Source: Sphingomonas bacterium
GTDB lineage: Bacteria > Pseudomonadota > Alphaproteobacteria > Sphingomonadales > Sphingomonadaceae
NCBI RefSeq assembly: GCF_028292965.1
Contig: NZ_JAQGLG010000122.1
Location: 1-42,963 of the forward strand
Direction of reading: 5' to 3'
DNA: 42,963 nt
This document shows positions 37,561 to 42,242 of the stretch, piece by piece (the first letter of the stretch is position 1; every line of letters begins with the position of its first letter). The notes beneath the pieces are model-generated. The model was not told where the DNA came from. It saw only the letters and a list, made by a program, of their open reading frames with translations, and did no database searches. A program made the translations under genes and the position numbers.

Positions 37561-37561
<1 letters not shown>

Positions 37562-39435
37562 CAACTGCCCTCGGTACCTAATGCCTTGGCGTCTTCGTTC
37601 GACTGCACCAGATTTGCAAGTCGCACGTCGAGTGCCTGTTGTTCCCTCACCAGCGACATTTGCCGCTCGAATGCTTCATCCGAGTAATTCGTGCCCAGTT
37701 CGGCCGTTGCAGCGGCCAATAGGGCATCAACCTCGGGACGCGCCACAAGGATGTGGATCGCCTCGTCCAGATCGGCACGAACTTGCTCCGCGTCCGCCCC
37801 TTTCGGGGCTAACGATGACCGATCCGCGCGAAGCAGATCCGTCGCAATGTCGTCGAAACCGGATGTCCCCAATATGGTAACGAGTCGCTCGCTATCAAGC
37901 GCTCTATCTTTCAGGGCGACATTCACCAGCGCCTCGAACAGTTGTCCGAGCACCGCATCGGCCTTTTGCAACGCGCCCAGCACCTCGACATGCCGGGCGA
38001 TTTCGACCGGATGACGGATCAATCCGGCCAGCACGGCCTTGCCCAGCACCCGGTCGATGCCGCCCGCGCGAATGCCCTGCGCGGCCGGATGATGGCCGCC
38101 GGCCGGGGCAGGGGGCGCCCATTTGCCAGTGCCGCGGCGCGGCATATTCTGCTGGCGCGGTGCCTGTTGCTCGCGCTTGGGCGAAAAGTGTTTGTAGGCG
38201 CGGTCGCGAAAATCACTGTTATATTCCTGCCGGACATTCGGATCGGTGATCGTCGCCGCTAGGTCGTTCAGCCGCTGCTTCAGCCCGGCCTTCTGCTCCG
38301 GCGTGTCGAGCGGCTCGGCCGCCTTTTCATGTTCCCACAACCGCGAAACCAGGGATTCGGGCTTGGCCAGCAAGGCTTCGAACGCCTGAGCCCCCTTGGT
38401 ACGGACCAGGTCGTCGGGATCCTGTCCGGCGGGAAGGGTTACGAACGACAGGCTGCGCCCATGCCCAAGCAGCGGCAGCGCGCGCTGCGCGGCACGGATC
38501 GCCGCCTTCTGTCCGGCGCTGTCGCCGTCGAAACACAGGATCGGTACATCGACCAGCCGCCACAGTCGCTCCAGCTGCATTTCGGTCAGCGCGGTGCCAA
38601 GCGGCGCGACCGTTTCGCCGAACCCGGCCTGGGCCAGCGCGATGACGTCCATATAACCTTCGACCACCAGCACCCGGCCCGACTTGCGGCTCGCCGGCGC
38701 GGCGCGATCGAGATTGTAGAGGCTGCGCCCCTTGTCGAACAGCGGGGTCTCGGGCGAGTTGAGATATTTCGGCTCGCCCTCGCCAATCACCCGCCCGCCG
38801 AACGCGATGGTCCGCCCACGCGGGTCGCGGATCGGGATCATCAGCCGCCCGCGGAACCGGTCATAGGGCTCCTTGTCGTCGACCTTGATCAGCATCCCCG
38901 CCTCGATCAGCAGCGGATCGCCATATTCCTTGAGTGCGGTCTTGAGCTTGCCGCGCGAATCGGGCGCGAAGCCGAGCGAAAAGGCCTTGGCCGTCTCCGC
39001 CTTGATCCCGCGCTTCTCCAGCACCGCGCGTGCCTCGGCGCCCGCGATCCCGTTCAACTGCTCGGTGAACCAGGCAGCAGCATCGGCGCACGCCTCATGC
39101 AGCCCCTTGGCCCGCTCGGCCTTCTCGGCCGATCGCGGGTCGAGCGCCGGCATCTCCATGCCGGCGGCCTGCACCAGCTCCTTCACCGCATCGATGAAAG
39201 GGAGCCCGCGCTGATCGGTCATCCAGCGGATCGCGTCGCCATGCGCCCCGCAGCCGAAGCAATGGTAAAAGGCCTTGTCGTCGTTGACGTAGAAGCTCGG
39301 TGACTTCTCGTTGTGAAACGGACAACAAGCGCGCCACTCCCGCCCGGCCTTTTGCAGCTTGGTCGTGCGCCCGATCAGCGACGACAGCAGCGTGCGCGAG
39401 CGGAGTTCGTCGAGGAACTGGGGAGTAAGCGCCAT
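37561..39435 (-). CDS. dnaG: DNA primase
   Basis: Primase makes RNA primers at replication forks. The N-terminal CHC2 zinc finger is visible ([13 protein letters not shown] ... [13 protein letters not shown], residues about 36-68). The Toprim catalytic core contains [17 protein letters not shown] and [15 protein letters not shown], and the C-terminal DnaB-binding helical region ends at 624 aa. The ATG at 39435 overlaps the stop of the upstream DUF559 frame (TGATG) and the 3' end overlaps rpoD the same way, so the macromolecular-synthesis operon stays translationally linked across the inserted cassette. Confidence 0.98.
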
Positions 39436-39926
39436 CAGCCCCCTCCCGTCGCGCGGTCAGGCGCACTTCTGCTCCCCCTCCCGCTTGCGGGAGGGGGCTG
39501 GGGGGTGGGCGCCCGGCCAGCGTCACCCGCAACGTTAAGAATAGTCTCCAACACCCCAGCCATATTGCTCGTCAGATCATTATTCCAGAAGCGCAGAACC
39601 CGATAACCGGCCGCCTCAAGTGCGCATGTCCGCGCCGCATCACAGGCCGCTGCTTCGACATGCTGGCTACCATCCAACTCAACGATCAATCGCGCGGAAC
39701 GACAGGCAAAATCACCAAAATATCCCGCCACGGGCAATTGCCGCGTAAACTTCAGCCCGCCCAGCCGCGATCCCTTCAACTCCAACCAAAGGCGCTCTTC
39801 CGCCTCAGTGGGTTCGTTGCGCAGGTCACGCGCTCTCGCCGTCGGCCGCCCCAGCCGAAACCGGGCGCCCACCCCTCGGTCCCCTCCCGCTTGCGGGAGG
39901 GGAGGAAGAAGGGGCTCCTTCTCCAT
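39435..39926 (-). CDS. DUF559-domain (Vsr-like) predicted endonuclease
   Basis: The core (about residues 30-125) is a DUF559 domain of the PD-(D/E)XK/Vsr-like nuclease group: LRNEPTEAEERLWLELKGSR, FTRQLPVAGYFGDFACRSAR (catalytic Asp), LIVELDGSQH (E-x-D) and AAGYRVLRFWNNDL. Both ends of the frame are translated palindromic repeat: PPLPQAGGDRGVGARF at the start and APTPQPPPASGRGS near the end. ATG 39926 follows the gatB/yqeY stop with no gap; GTG 39872, inside the inverted repeat, may be the true start. The stop overlaps the dnaG ATG. Biological role unknown; its link to the flanking repeats suggests a part in their movement or a domesticated remnant. Confidence 0.82.
   Translation of the reverse strand: MEKEPLLPPLPQAGGDRGVGARFRLGRPTARARDLRNEPTEAEERLWLELKGSRLGGLKFTRQLPVAGYFGDFACRSARLIVELDGSQHVEAAACDAARTCALEAAGYRVLRFWNNDLTSNMAGVLETILNVAGDAGRAPTPQPPPASGRGSRSAPDRATGGG
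39474..39900 (-). mobile_element. Palindrome-bounded DUF559 cassette
   Basis: The left palindrome is CCCCCTCCCGC-TT-GCGGGAGGGGG (39474-39497). The right is CCCCTCCCGC-TT-GCGGGAGGGG as read on the plus strand (39881-39902). Inside them, exact 15-nt inverted repeats (GGGGTGGGCGCCCGG at 39502-39516; its complement at 39861-39875) enclose the nuclease gene. Nearly the whole 491-bp space between gatB/yqeY and dnaG is this unit. No clear target-site duplication was seen. Its two ends match the ends of the element in carA. The end coordinate is approximate by a few bases. Confidence 0.65.
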
Positions 39927-40379
39927 TTACGAAAGCGCCGCCTTCACCAGCCCGCTCGCCTTGCTCATATCCAGGCTCTGCGCATGCCGTGCCTTAAGCT
40001 CGGCCATCACCCGGCCCATATCCTTCATGCCGCCAGCGCCGAGCTCAACCTTGATCGCCTCGATCGCTGCCTTCGTCTCGTCCTCGCTCATCTGCGTGGG
40101 CAAAAACCGCTCGATCACCGACACCTCGGCCAACTCGGCATCGGCCAGTTCCTGCCGCCCGCCCTTCACGAACATCTCGACCGATTCGCGCCGCTGCTTG
40201 ACCATTTTCTGCAGCACCTCGACGACGAGCGTATCGTCATCAGCCGGCGACGACCCGGTCCGCGCCTCGATGTCGCGATTCTTGATCGAGCTCTGCACGA
40301 GGCGCAGCGTGGCGGTGGTCGCCTTGTCGCCGCCCTTCATCGCGCTGATGAGTGCGTCCTTGATGTCGTCGCGAATCAT
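39927..40379 (-). CDS. GatB/YqeY-domain protein
   Basis: This is a 150-aa helical protein of the YqeY family, homologous to the tRNA-interacting tail of GatB and thought to bind tRNA or assist amidotransferases. Segments: MIRDDIKDALISAMKGGDKA, RDIEARTGSSPADDDTLVVE, VIERFLPTQMSEDETKAAIE and DMGRVMAELKARHAQ. ATG 40379 matches the family; eight more codons are open upstream. It is first in the minus-strand block leading to dnaG and rpoD and divergent from carA, with 133 bp between. Confidence 0.93.
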   Translation of the reverse strand: MIRDDIKDALISAMKGGDKATTATLRLVQSSIKNRDIEARTGSSPADDDTLVVEVLQKMVKQRRESVEMFVKGGRQELADAELAEVSVIERFLPTQMSEDETKAAIEAIKVELGAGGMKDMGRVMAELKARHAQSLDMSKASGLVKAALS

Positions 40380-40512
40380 GTCCGGTCCTTTACGGTAATC
40401 CACAGCACTAGCCCGACCGCCGGCCCTTTAACAGATTGACGCAACCGGCCCGCGTCTCTAGCGACCGCCGCTTAGCGACATCGTAAACAAACCGACGGAG
40501 TGCCCGCCCGCA

Positions 40513-41790
40513 ATGGCCGACGCCAAGCCCTATCCCGTGCCCGAAGGCGCCACTGGCGTTCTCGTCCTCGCCAGCGGTGAGGTCGTATGGGGCCGTGGTT
40601 TCGGCGCCGAGGGTGAGGCGGTAGGCGAGGTGTGCTTCCACACCGCGATGACGGGTTACCAGGAGATCATGACCGACCCGAGCTTTGCCGGGCAGATCAT
40701 CACCTTCACCTTCCCACATATCGGCAATGTCGGCGCCAACCCCGACGACGTCGAGGCCGACGATCCCCATGCGCTCGGCATGATCGTGCGCGAGGACGTC
40801 ACCGATCCCTCAAGCTTCCGCTCGACCGAGCGGCTCGACGCGTGGATGAAGCGCCACACGCGCATCGGCCTCGCCGGCATCGACACCCGCGCGCTGACGA
40901 AGAAGATCCGCACCGGCGGCGCTCCCAATGGCGTCATCGCGCACTCCGCGACCGGCGATTTCGACATCCCCGCGCTGCTCGAAAAAGCCCGCGCCTGGCC
41001 CGGCCTCGAAGGCATGGACCTCGCGATCGAGGTCACCACCGAGACGCATTACGGCTGGGCCGGCGGCGTCTGGCGGCTGGGCTTCGGTTATGACGAAACT
41101 TCTTCTTCCCCCCTCCCGCAAGCGGGAGGGGCCGGGGGTGGGCACCTGACCTCCCCAAGCGGTACCGCCAGCGGTGAGCGCGAGCCCACCCCCAACCCCT
41201 CCCGCAAGCGGGAGGGGAGCGAAGACAGGCCCCACGTCGTCGCCATCGACTATGGCTCCAAACGCAACATCTTTCGCAACCTCGTCGCCGCCGGCGCCAA
41301 GGTCTCCGTCGTCCCCGCCAACGCCACCTACGACCAGGTCATGGCCCTGAAGCCCGACGGCATCTTCCTGTCCAATGGCCCCGGCGACCCCGCCGCGACC
41401 GGCGAATATGCCGTCCCGGTGATCCAGCAACTGCTTGCCACGGGAAAACCGCTGTTCGGCATCTGCCTCGGCCATCAGTTGCTCGGCCTCGCGGTCGGCG
41501 GCACCACGACCAAGATGTTCCAGGGCCATCGCGGCGCCAACCACCCGGTCAAGCGCCTGTCCGACGGCGTGGTCGAGATCACCAGCATGAACCACGGCTT
41601 CGCGGTCGAACGCGACAGCCTCCCAGCGACCGCACGCGAGACGCATGTCTCACTGTTCGACGGCAGCAACGCCGGGCTGGAACTGACCGACCGGCCGGCG
41701 TTCAGTGTGCAATATCACCCCGAGGCGAGCCCGGGTCCACAGGACAGCCTTTATCTGTTCGAGAAGTTCGTGGGCGGACTTCGCGCATGA
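40513..41790 (+). CDS. carA: Carbamoyl-phosphate synthase small subunit, with in-frame repeat insert
   Basis: CarA hydrolyses glutamine and passes ammonia to CarB for carbamoyl phosphate, used in pyrimidine and arginine synthesis. The N-terminal domain (residues 1-190, e.g. CFHTAMTGYQEIMTDPSFAG) and the glutamine amidotransferase domain (from HVVAIDYGSKRNIF, residue 241) are intact. Cys318 (GICLGHQ), His402 and Glu404 (QYHPEA) form the triad. Residues about 200-235 are a translated palindromic element; without these 36 residues the length would be 389 aa, the usual size. The insert falls in the linker between domains, so activity is plausible. The stop overlaps the next gene (ATGA). Confidence 0.96.
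   Translation: MADAKPYPVPEGATGVLVLASGEVVWGRGFGAEGEAVGEVCFHTAMTGYQEIMTDPSFAGQIITFTFPHIGNVGANPDDVEADDPHALGMIVREDVTDPSSFRSTERLDAWMKRHTRIGLAGIDTRALTKKIRTGGAPNGVIAHSATGDFDIPALLEKARAWPGLEGMDLAIEVTTETHYGWAGGVWRLGFGYDETSSSPLPQAGGAGGGHLTSPSGTASGEREPTPNPSRKREGSEDRPHVVAIDYGSKRNIFRNLVAAGAKVSVVPANATYDQVMALKPDGIFLSNGPGDPAATGEYAVPVIQQLLATGKPLFGICLGHQLLGLAVGGTTTKMFQGHRGANHPVKRLSDGVVEITSMNHGFAVERDSLPATARETHVSLFDGSNAGLELTDRPAFSVQYHPEASPGPQDSLYLFEKFVGGLRA
41110..41217 (+). repeat. Palindromic repeat element inserted in frame within carA
   Basis: Two palindromes, CCCCTCCCGC-AA-GCGGGAGGGG, lie at 41110-41131 and 41196-41217. Inside them are inverted GGGGTGGGC (41135-41143) and GCCCACCCC (41184-41192), around about 40 bp that include GCGGTACCGC. 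Total length is 108 bp, exactly 36 codons. It begins at a codon boundary (codon 200) and has no stop in the carA frame. It reads PLPQAGGAGGGHLTSPSG then TASGEREPTPNPSRKREG. It is the same element type as the DUF559 cassette, in the opposite orientation and lacking the gene. Confidence 0.9.
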
Positions 41791-42242
41791 ACATCTACGC
41801 TTTTGCCTCTCGCAGCCGTACCAATATCTGGGCGGGCATCGGACGTGGTTTGTGGGCTGTGAGCCACTCGCCCCATCCGAGTACAAATAAGGGCAGGGCG
41901 ACGAAGGCCGCTAAAATGCCCATCGGTTCGTTCGGCCTAATCTACTGCAGCGAAAATCAGACCTATAACACACCATTCGTGGTGTTGGGGGCGGTGCATC
42001 CCACGTTGGTAATCGCGGACGTTTGGCCAGAGCCTTGGATTCTTCCGTTTGAAATTAGAGCGTTAGGTAACCCCAGTCGCGCAGTGAGGCGCGAGGAGAT
42101 GTATGATCTGCTGCCCAGTCTCAAGGCCGGCCCATCGCTGAGTGTTGATGATCTTCTTGAGATAAAAGGTGTGCAGGCTTTCAATGCATCGACAATCACG
42201 GAGGCCGACTGGGCCGCATTATTCGAGGCTCTAGTTATCTAA
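41787..42242 (+). CDS. EVE/PUA-like small protein nested between carA and carB
   Basis: This is a 151-aa protein with no signal peptide. The part [38 protein letters not shown] resembles EVE/YTH-like PUA-fold domains, which bind modified bases in nucleic acid; this is a weak, motif-level suggestion. A helical C-terminus ([17 protein letters not shown]) follows. Base composition and codons (ATA, TTA, CTA, AAT, ATT) are clearly less GC-rich than neighbours, a sign of transfer. The start overlaps the carA stop (ATGA) and the stop overlaps the carB start (TAATG), so it is translated as part of the operon. Confidence 0.72.

Follow-up and report, generated by a model that had tools for sequence, protein, structure and literature searches.

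The small subunit of carbamoyl-phosphate synthase of a Sphingomonas bacterium is encoded by a carA gene in which a pair of DNA palindromes lies in frame between the regions for the two protein domains. This locus raises the question of how a palindromic repeat enters a conserved gene, which enzyme spreads it, and whether the resulting peptide serves the host protein. The window, i.e., the whole stretch of DNA that was analysed, comprises 42,963 nucleotides (assembly GCF_028292965.1, contig NZ_JAQGLG010000122.1, positions 1 to 42,963 of the forward strand). The features of the carA locus are as follows.

40513..41790, + strand: carA, carbamoyl-phosphate synthase small subunit, 425 aa, PF00988 and PF00117, host gene of the insert
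41110..41217, no strand: core of the palindromic element, class T1, 108 bp, 36 residues, in frame from codon 200
41110..41131, no strand: first 22-nt palindrome of the carA element
41196..41217, no strand: second 22-nt palindrome of the carA element
41099..41109, no strand: outer pyrimidine-rich arm (GA-rich on the other strand), common to other copies and likely part of the repeat
41218..41225, no strand: outer GA-rich arm on the 3' side, common to other copies and likely part of the repeat

The two palindromes are identical copies of 22 nt (CCCCTCCCGC-AA-GCGGGAGGGG); together with the DNA between them, they form an inverted pair of 54/54 nt that is 76% complementary. RNA of 128 nt around the pair has a folding energy of -90.7 kcal/mol (z -8.6), and 0 of 200 shuffles was as good. 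Position 41110 is the first base of carA codon 200, and no stop codon occurs inside the element (425-aa ORF), so the coordinates and the ORF confirm the preliminary description, which had placed a 108-bp palindrome pair without a stop in frame in carA. Its further claim that both domains and the catalytic triad are intact was borne out as well: the Pfam domains, CPSase small chain (residues 17-142) and GATase (residues 244-420), flank the insert, and C318, H402, and E404, which we take to be the active-site residues, are invariant in 49 aligned CarA proteins. The extent of 108 bp is right for the core pair and probably a little short for the full unit. The flanks of other copies in the same genome (64 flanks, 32 pairs) have GA-rich outer arms in common, which fade after approximately 11 nt; hence, the repeat unit is probably slightly longer than 108 bp. 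On the inner side of the palindromes, a GGGGGTGGGC-like motif is common to the copies of this genome.

The linker of this CarA has 48 residues, compared with 11 in 12 short-linker CarA proteins (+37), and the position of the element corresponds to near residue 185 of Escherichia coli CarA. Modelled with AlphaFold2, the protein resembles CarA of E. coli in structure (1cs0_B, E 8.8e-45). Residues 197-236 form the longest stretch of the model with pLDDT below 50, which fits the expectation for a disordered linker. The insert is predicted to be translated, as deduced from the reading frame, and the model predicts its peptide to be a disordered interdomain linker. Downstream, a 151-aa ORF (41787-42242, + strand) overlaps the carA stop codon, ends at the start of carB, and separates the two genes; it had no Pfam match.

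A BLAST search with the carA element gave 80 matches on both strands of its own genome, from which 34 pairs and 4 single palindromes were recovered after identical sequences had been merged. The exact core CCTCCCGCNNGCGGGAGG has 57 matches here, as against 0 for the reversed pattern, and is present in 198/295 genomes of the genus; the carA palindrome is therefore not a chance occurrence. The carA insert is one copy of a palindromic repeat that is widespread in Sphingomonas. Element length shows no bias to multiples of three among the 34 pairs (remainders 0, 1, and 2 in 14, 9, and 11). ORFs spanning copies numbered 48, and 20 of them, from 17 loci, were examined by Pfam. RNase R alone has a single domain running across the element (RNB 17-373, element approximately 155-191). 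In this survey of ORFs spanning copies, the in-frame cases were RNase R and carA.

The carA linker was then compared across the genus, with every fourth new genome as the sample (68 genomes, 67 with a carA match); its status was read from fetched DNA or, failing that, from the distance between two match segments. A palindromic repeat lies in the linker of 16/67 genes, in five kinds, and 51/67 have none. The 16 inserts comprise T1 in a first frame (6, one of them frame-broken), T1 in a second frame (2), a single T1 palindrome (1, frame-broken), T2 (1), T3 (4), T4 (1), and another repeat present as three copies in tandem (1). Thus, one of the five kinds, T1, occurs in two reading frames, and each of the second-frame inserts encloses a further palindromic repeat. 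A set of 40 relatives included 24 from the same genus, of which seven (L048-L054) have a repeat in the linker and 16 (L055-L070) have none; one of the 24 had no carA match. Rows L092 and L098-L100 were left out of the linker table. Presence and absence, several sequence kinds, and more than one reading frame are therefore found at one site. The preliminary description had suggested inspecting CarA of relatives, and relatives with an insert and relatives lacking one at exactly this linker were indeed found.

Linkers longer than 15 aa were found in 109 and the 11-aa form in 12 of 121 CarA proteins, a sample biased to the query (120 listed among 7942 matches, plus P0011). In a tree of 158 CarA proteins, built with the linker excluded and with P0073 left out because it had no linker match, the linker kind changes at least 38 times when forks below 95 SH-aLRT are collapsed. 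Collapsing forks below 90 gives at least 48 changes (20 shuffles: mean 69.8, minimum 63). At 95, 16 changes are left once the CCCTCCC-type kinds are lumped and T3 is joined with T4. These are changes on a single gene tree, in which new insertion, gene transfer, and repeat replacement look alike.

Several linkers carry further peculiarities. In L245 (G145), the three tandem copies are of an unrelated repeat with the peptide SSQRKLGSQA or close to it. The 16-aa linker EDESPSRTAGGEKKPH of L247 (G077) reads like a shrunken T1 remnant and was counted as repeat-free. P0055 is a CarA of 470 aa with two T2-type elements in tandem in the linker. A second palindromic repeat is nested inside a T1 palindrome, with the frame kept, in L220 and L225 (carA), L183 (rnr), and P0092 (CarA); in L220 and L183, the nested repeat has ends like GAGTTTnGGG ... 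CCCnAAACTGG.

The reading frame is kept in 14/16 sampled inserts and broken in the assembled sequence of G113 and G237. In these two (L243 and L244, respectively), the break lies inside the element, and relatives have intact copies. Hairpins are prone to assembly errors, and such breaks inside the element would fit an annotation or assembly artefact, in which the segment is absent from the real gene or untranslated. We regard this as extremely improbable, since the same kinds of insert recur at this position across many independent assemblies, some of them single-contig, and the frame is kept in all but those two inserts.

Other proteins are entered in the same manner. The rnr site holds T1, a T2-like repeat, T3, T4, or another palindrome in 6/10 aligned species (L176 and L180 were left out of the twelve loci). 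A search for T1 peptides in conserved proteins, also suggested in the preliminary description, returned matches in GlyS, PccA, GspE, RsmI, Uup, and others. The first-frame peptide occurs in CarA, GlyS, GspE, RsmI, Uup, PccA, and a DUF418 protein (14/235 candidates), and the second-frame peptide in CarA, GlyS, PccA, Val/Ile-tRNA synthetase, DnaE, GlyQ, LigA, and others (67/142 candidates). T1 is found in both frames at the glyS site after VEEGIV and at the pccA site after LVRYE. Two GlyS proteins (P0009 and P0010) have two in-frame T1 insertions each, at different sites.

Whether the inserted peptide does anything for CarA was approached through its sequence evolution. For the linker, pN/pS ranges from 0.49-1.16, as against 0.00-0.09 for the remainder of CarA (6 pairs from 4 genomes, approximately 42 synonymous sites; L050, L077, L217, and L218, which have one linker form in common and no length change). 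The linker thus changes at a near-neutral rate with its frame held; selection on carA is the simplest reason for the frame being kept, and the peptide itself drifts. The repeat itself is not adapted to be open in all frames: 130/204 frames of the 34 pairs of this genome are open, against a shuffled mean of 133, and the spacer alone has 133/204 open frames against 147 in shuffles, i.e., fewer than expected. The frame is open because the repeat is GC-rich and not because it is adapted to code. Alternatively, the long linker might have been selected for a function in CarA, where a pause in translation or a flexible spacer between the domains would help folding or regulation; insertion has recurred at the domain boundary in many species, the hairpin is very stable, and all linker repeat kinds are palindromic. 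We consider this improbable, given that 51/67 sampled carA genes lack a repeat, that the sequence is near neutral in the one lineage tested, and that the rnr site lies inside the RNB domain and not at a domain boundary. Most likely, CarA tolerates the insert as a passenger, and its translation would give a disordered linker between the domains.

A candidate for the enzyme that spreads the repeat lies upstream of carA in the same window, where the remaining T1 palindromes enclose a gene.

39475..39902, no strand: longer relative of the carA element, 428 bp, a DUF559 gene enclosed by two T1 palindromes, located between yqeY and dnaG
39475..39496, no strand: first terminal T1 palindrome of the DUF559-bearing element
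39881..39902, no strand: second terminal T1 palindrome of the DUF559-bearing element
39435..39926, - strand: 163-aa ORF with a DUF559 domain at 39534-39842, predicted EDxHD/Vsr-like fold
39927..40403, - strand: yqeY, PF09424, neighbour for the empty-site comparison
37561..39435, - strand: dnaG, identified by Pfam, neighbour for the empty-site comparison

The DUF559 domain is a match to PF04480 (E 1.3e-37), and both ends of the 163-aa ORF run through the T1 palindromes. The interpretation in the preliminary description was thus supported in part: it had overlooked this gene between the remaining palindromes, as well as the several repeat kinds and the more than one reading frame in the carA linker.

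The yqeY-dnaG intergenic site was compared in 46 loci, 43 of them distinct (identical pairs L058/L082, L080/L227, and L081/L219). The site is empty, with 4 nt only, in five loci (L055, L086, L223, L229, and L239) and holds DUF559 in 26/46 loci, or 25/43 distinct ones; a DUF559 match was present in 27/46 loci, and that of L239 is located elsewhere in the locus. The DUF559 proteins at this site share 44-75% identity with the window's own. In L084, the site holds a T1 pair of approximately 244 bp and gave no match to DUF559; a single palindrome is found in each of L053, L054, and L088, and the remaining loci hold other sequence. This one site therefore occurs empty, with a short element, and with a DUF559-bearing one. 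Comparison of the filled and empty sites, which are between species only and too diverged to read a target-site duplication, identified none. In L081/L219, L222, and L235, the gap is approximately 500 bp, with no match to the window DUF559 domain; T3/T4-like repeats lie at one end, and a different element may sit there.

The DUF559 product is predicted to be an endonuclease with an EDxHD/Vsr-like fold. Its model (pLDDT 81.7) matches 3hrl (E 2.4e-8) and the catalytic domain of I-Bth0305I (3r3p, E 2.2e-4) and, weakly, Vsr (1cw0, E 0.027); by profile, it matches 3hrl (E 7.8e-37) and 3r3p (E 0.0055). R8, E15, Q35, D44, E55, G58, H61, and D68 are conserved in 80/80 domains and D57 in 79/80. PADLOC gave no match for the protein. 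The literature places a DUF559 gene in the EDxHD homing family (PMC9403480), describes EDxHD proteins as homing endonucleases (PMC3943268), and reports that Caulobacter VsrA, a DUF559-domain protein, is required for the DNA-damage response in a methyltransferase mutant (PMC12907096).

The association of DUF559 with palindromes extends through the genus and beyond. A PF04480 match was found in 273/295 genus genomes. Seventy DUF559 loci were chosen non-randomly (the 30 best Pfam scores, one per genome, and 40 picked from the rest of the listing, 20 of these from genomes with at most two T1 cores). Among them, 69/70 show, no farther than 160 bp from the domain, a hairpin whose stem is at least 8, and 52/70 have one on both sides; the background elsewhere in these loci is 0.066 per 160 bp. 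Such a hairpin accompanies 10/10 DUF559 genes of the window's own genome, five of them on both sides. The window copy alone of these ten is T1-flanked, and L333 is of an unlike kind. In an overlapping set, drawn from carA loci, a hairpin lies within 260 bp of 27/29 DUF559 matches (exceptions L228 and L239), and outside the genus but within the class, 27/29 DUF559 loci have a hairpin, 12 of them on both sides. In genomes with no or almost no T1, DUF559 is flanked mostly by other palindrome classes (CCTCTCCC..., CCCTCCCC...).

Palindrome class is both physically and phylogenetically coupled to DUF559 lineage. The two flanks agree in class in 47/49 loci. On the DUF559 tree, class changes twice, the minimum for three classes, against a mean of 29.9 and a minimum of 24 in 200 shuffles; this tree has 80 rows, 70 of them labelled, with related copies that are not independent and few columns. 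Inner ends are likewise common to the short T1 form and its DUF559-bearing counterpart: GGG[TA]GGGC occurs at 41/59 T1-DUF559 ends and 64/68 short-form ends, and at 0/53 and 0/20 ends of two other palindrome classes. Every genome with 50 or more cores has DUF559 (47/47).

DUF559 might also be a passenger or site-specific invader of pre-existing repeats, with the palindromes as its target or terminators, and the repeats would then be spread by another enzyme or by host replication and recombination. The numbers in the window's own genome fit such a reading, since its short copies far exceed the DUF559-bearing T1 copies (34 short pairs and a single T1-flanked DUF559 gene among 10), and so do the genomes that have the core and no DUF559: 7/22 DUF559-less genomes hold it, two of them with more than one copy (6, and 21 in G242; G006 and G280 were counted among the 22 by elimination). 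Relatives of the fold are, moreover, known as homing endonucleases (PMC3943268). An invader, however, should meet different palindrome classes, whereas class tracks DUF559 lineage with the minimum number of changes and both flanks are of the same class in all but two loci; for these reasons, we hold this reading to be unlikely, while still giving it some weight.

DUF559 cannot account for the whole carA hotspot, because T3, T4, and the L245 repeat showed no link to DUF559 in the data examined. No T2-flanked DUF559 was seen in the loci examined. Local hopping from a DUF559 copy beside carA was also considered and is unsupported where the class of that copy differs from the linker kind: the DUF559 beside carA is T1-flanked although the linker holds T2 (L048, L049, and L215) or T3 (L052, L221, and L224).

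RAYT transposases are the known partners of REP repeats, and the partner gene matches its repeats. REPINs of Pseudomonas and enterobacteria are moved by such RAYT (Y1/HUH) transposases, and the repeat studied here could be another of this kind: it has the same architecture, an inverted palindrome pair of approximately 100 bp in tens of copies, and its own genome has two Y1 matches. Y1 is weakly associated with the core (29/33 genomes as against 169/262; Fisher p 0.006, uncorrected for kinship). Yet a Y1 match was found in only 33/295 genus genomes, and 44/47 genomes with 50 or more cores are without Y1 (3/47 with). No T1-T4 palindrome was found in 31 Y1 loci (of the 49 matches listed) with flanks of up to 1.5 kb, whereas the same T1-T4 patterns found the expected repeat in 10/10 control loci. 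Neither GTAG nor CGTC occurs on either strand of the 108 bp. With Y1 rare and the 31 loci free of T1-T4 palindromes, RAYT was rejected as the mobiliser for most genomes, and as a general explanation it is very improbable. In one Y1 locus of the window's own genome (L001, C143), the frames around the Y1 gene repeat LISIMSP near the ends, possibly as inverted repeats; no T1-T4 palindromes were found in this locus.

We therefore favour, as the likely explanation, mobilisation of the Sphingomonas palindromic repeat by DUF559, with the carA copy a tolerated passenger linker. DUF559 would recognise or cut at palindromes, or at hairpins formed by them, and the element would be copied into the break so made. 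Most insertions within genes would be lost, and the survivors would be those that keep the frame, bring no stop, and lie in a loop or linker. The structure of the palindrome-DUF559 element is established by comparison, and its enzymology is a prediction from sequence. A wider proposal, to which we give an even chance, is that DUF559 proteins mobilise a large undescribed class of palindrome-DUF559-palindrome elements in Alphaproteobacteria, which shed non-autonomous pairs into intergenic regions and fixed loops (CarA, RNase R, GlyS, and propionyl-CoA carboxylase). Spread of the repeat with the help of a predicted endonuclease would open a new route by which repeats come to lie in proteins. The tight coupling of class to lineage names a specific, testable enzyme for repeats that have no known transposase; it also suggests what DUF559, a common domain whose function is unknown, may do. 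As a natural experiment, the carA hotspot bears on the passage of selfish DNA into protein, with several kinds, more than one frame, and insert-free relatives for comparison.

E. litoralis and S. alaskensis are sphingomonads. PMC3733652 describes Rickettsia palindromic elements (RPEs) as palindromic repeats that sit in frame within conserved genes. It also reports GTAG and CGTC REPs that are in frame in many genes, intragenic REPs in E. litoralis and S. alaskensis, including tRNA synthetases, and REPs at about the same recB site in two Xanthomonas species. The preliminary description had likened the carA insert to RPEs and had known of no described equivalent. The analogy holds for appearance, as both are in-frame translatable palindromic repeats inside conserved ORFs, and the claim of no equivalent was only partly right in view of the in-frame REPs, sphingomonad tRNA synthetases included, in that source (PMC3733652). 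The likeness to RPEs is one of description; they belong to another order, whereas here several repeat kinds occur at the same protein sites and the Sphingomonas repeat has an endonuclease gene as its probable partner. The carA insert is thus a well-supported case of known protein-coding palindromic repeats, with unusual recurrence at fixed sites.

CGTC REPs resemble the present repeat in being alphaproteobacterial palindrome pairs, some of them within genes. They are described without transposase association in Alphaproteobacteria, with a stem of 8-9 and a loop of 4-5, in Table 1 of PMC3733652. T1, in contrast, has a stem of 10 bp, a loop of 2 nt, and no CGTC tag; the carA-linker kinds T3 and T4 may belong to the CGTC REPs. 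The available part of PMC12306157 contains no occurrence of Sphingomonas, endonuclease, or transposase. No published link between DUF559 and palindromic repeats was found in the literature searched, mostly outside subscription journals. The new element of the finding is DUF559 as the probable partner gene.

The carA element resembles MITEs, which are non-autonomous derivatives, in its terminal inverted repeats and in having a longer, gene-bearing counterpart with matching ends (the DUF559 form). EDxHD homing endonucleases (I-Bth0305I) and Vsr are like DUF559 in predicted fold and in the conserved E, D, H, and D, but DUF559 is a free-standing small gene between palindromes, and its endonuclease activity is predicted. 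To our knowledge, the EDxHD/Vsr-type fold is not known to mobilise REP-like repeats. GTAG REPs and the REPIN/RAYT system resemble the present case in their inverted palindrome pairs and in a partner gene beside or between the same palindromes. They differ in that GTAG is lacking on both strands of 41110-41217 and 41099-41225, and in that the partner is DUF559, with no Y1 gene beside or between the repeats in the loci examined. If the proposed role is true, DUF559 would serve these repeats as RAYT serves REPINs, the nuclease fold being an unrelated one.
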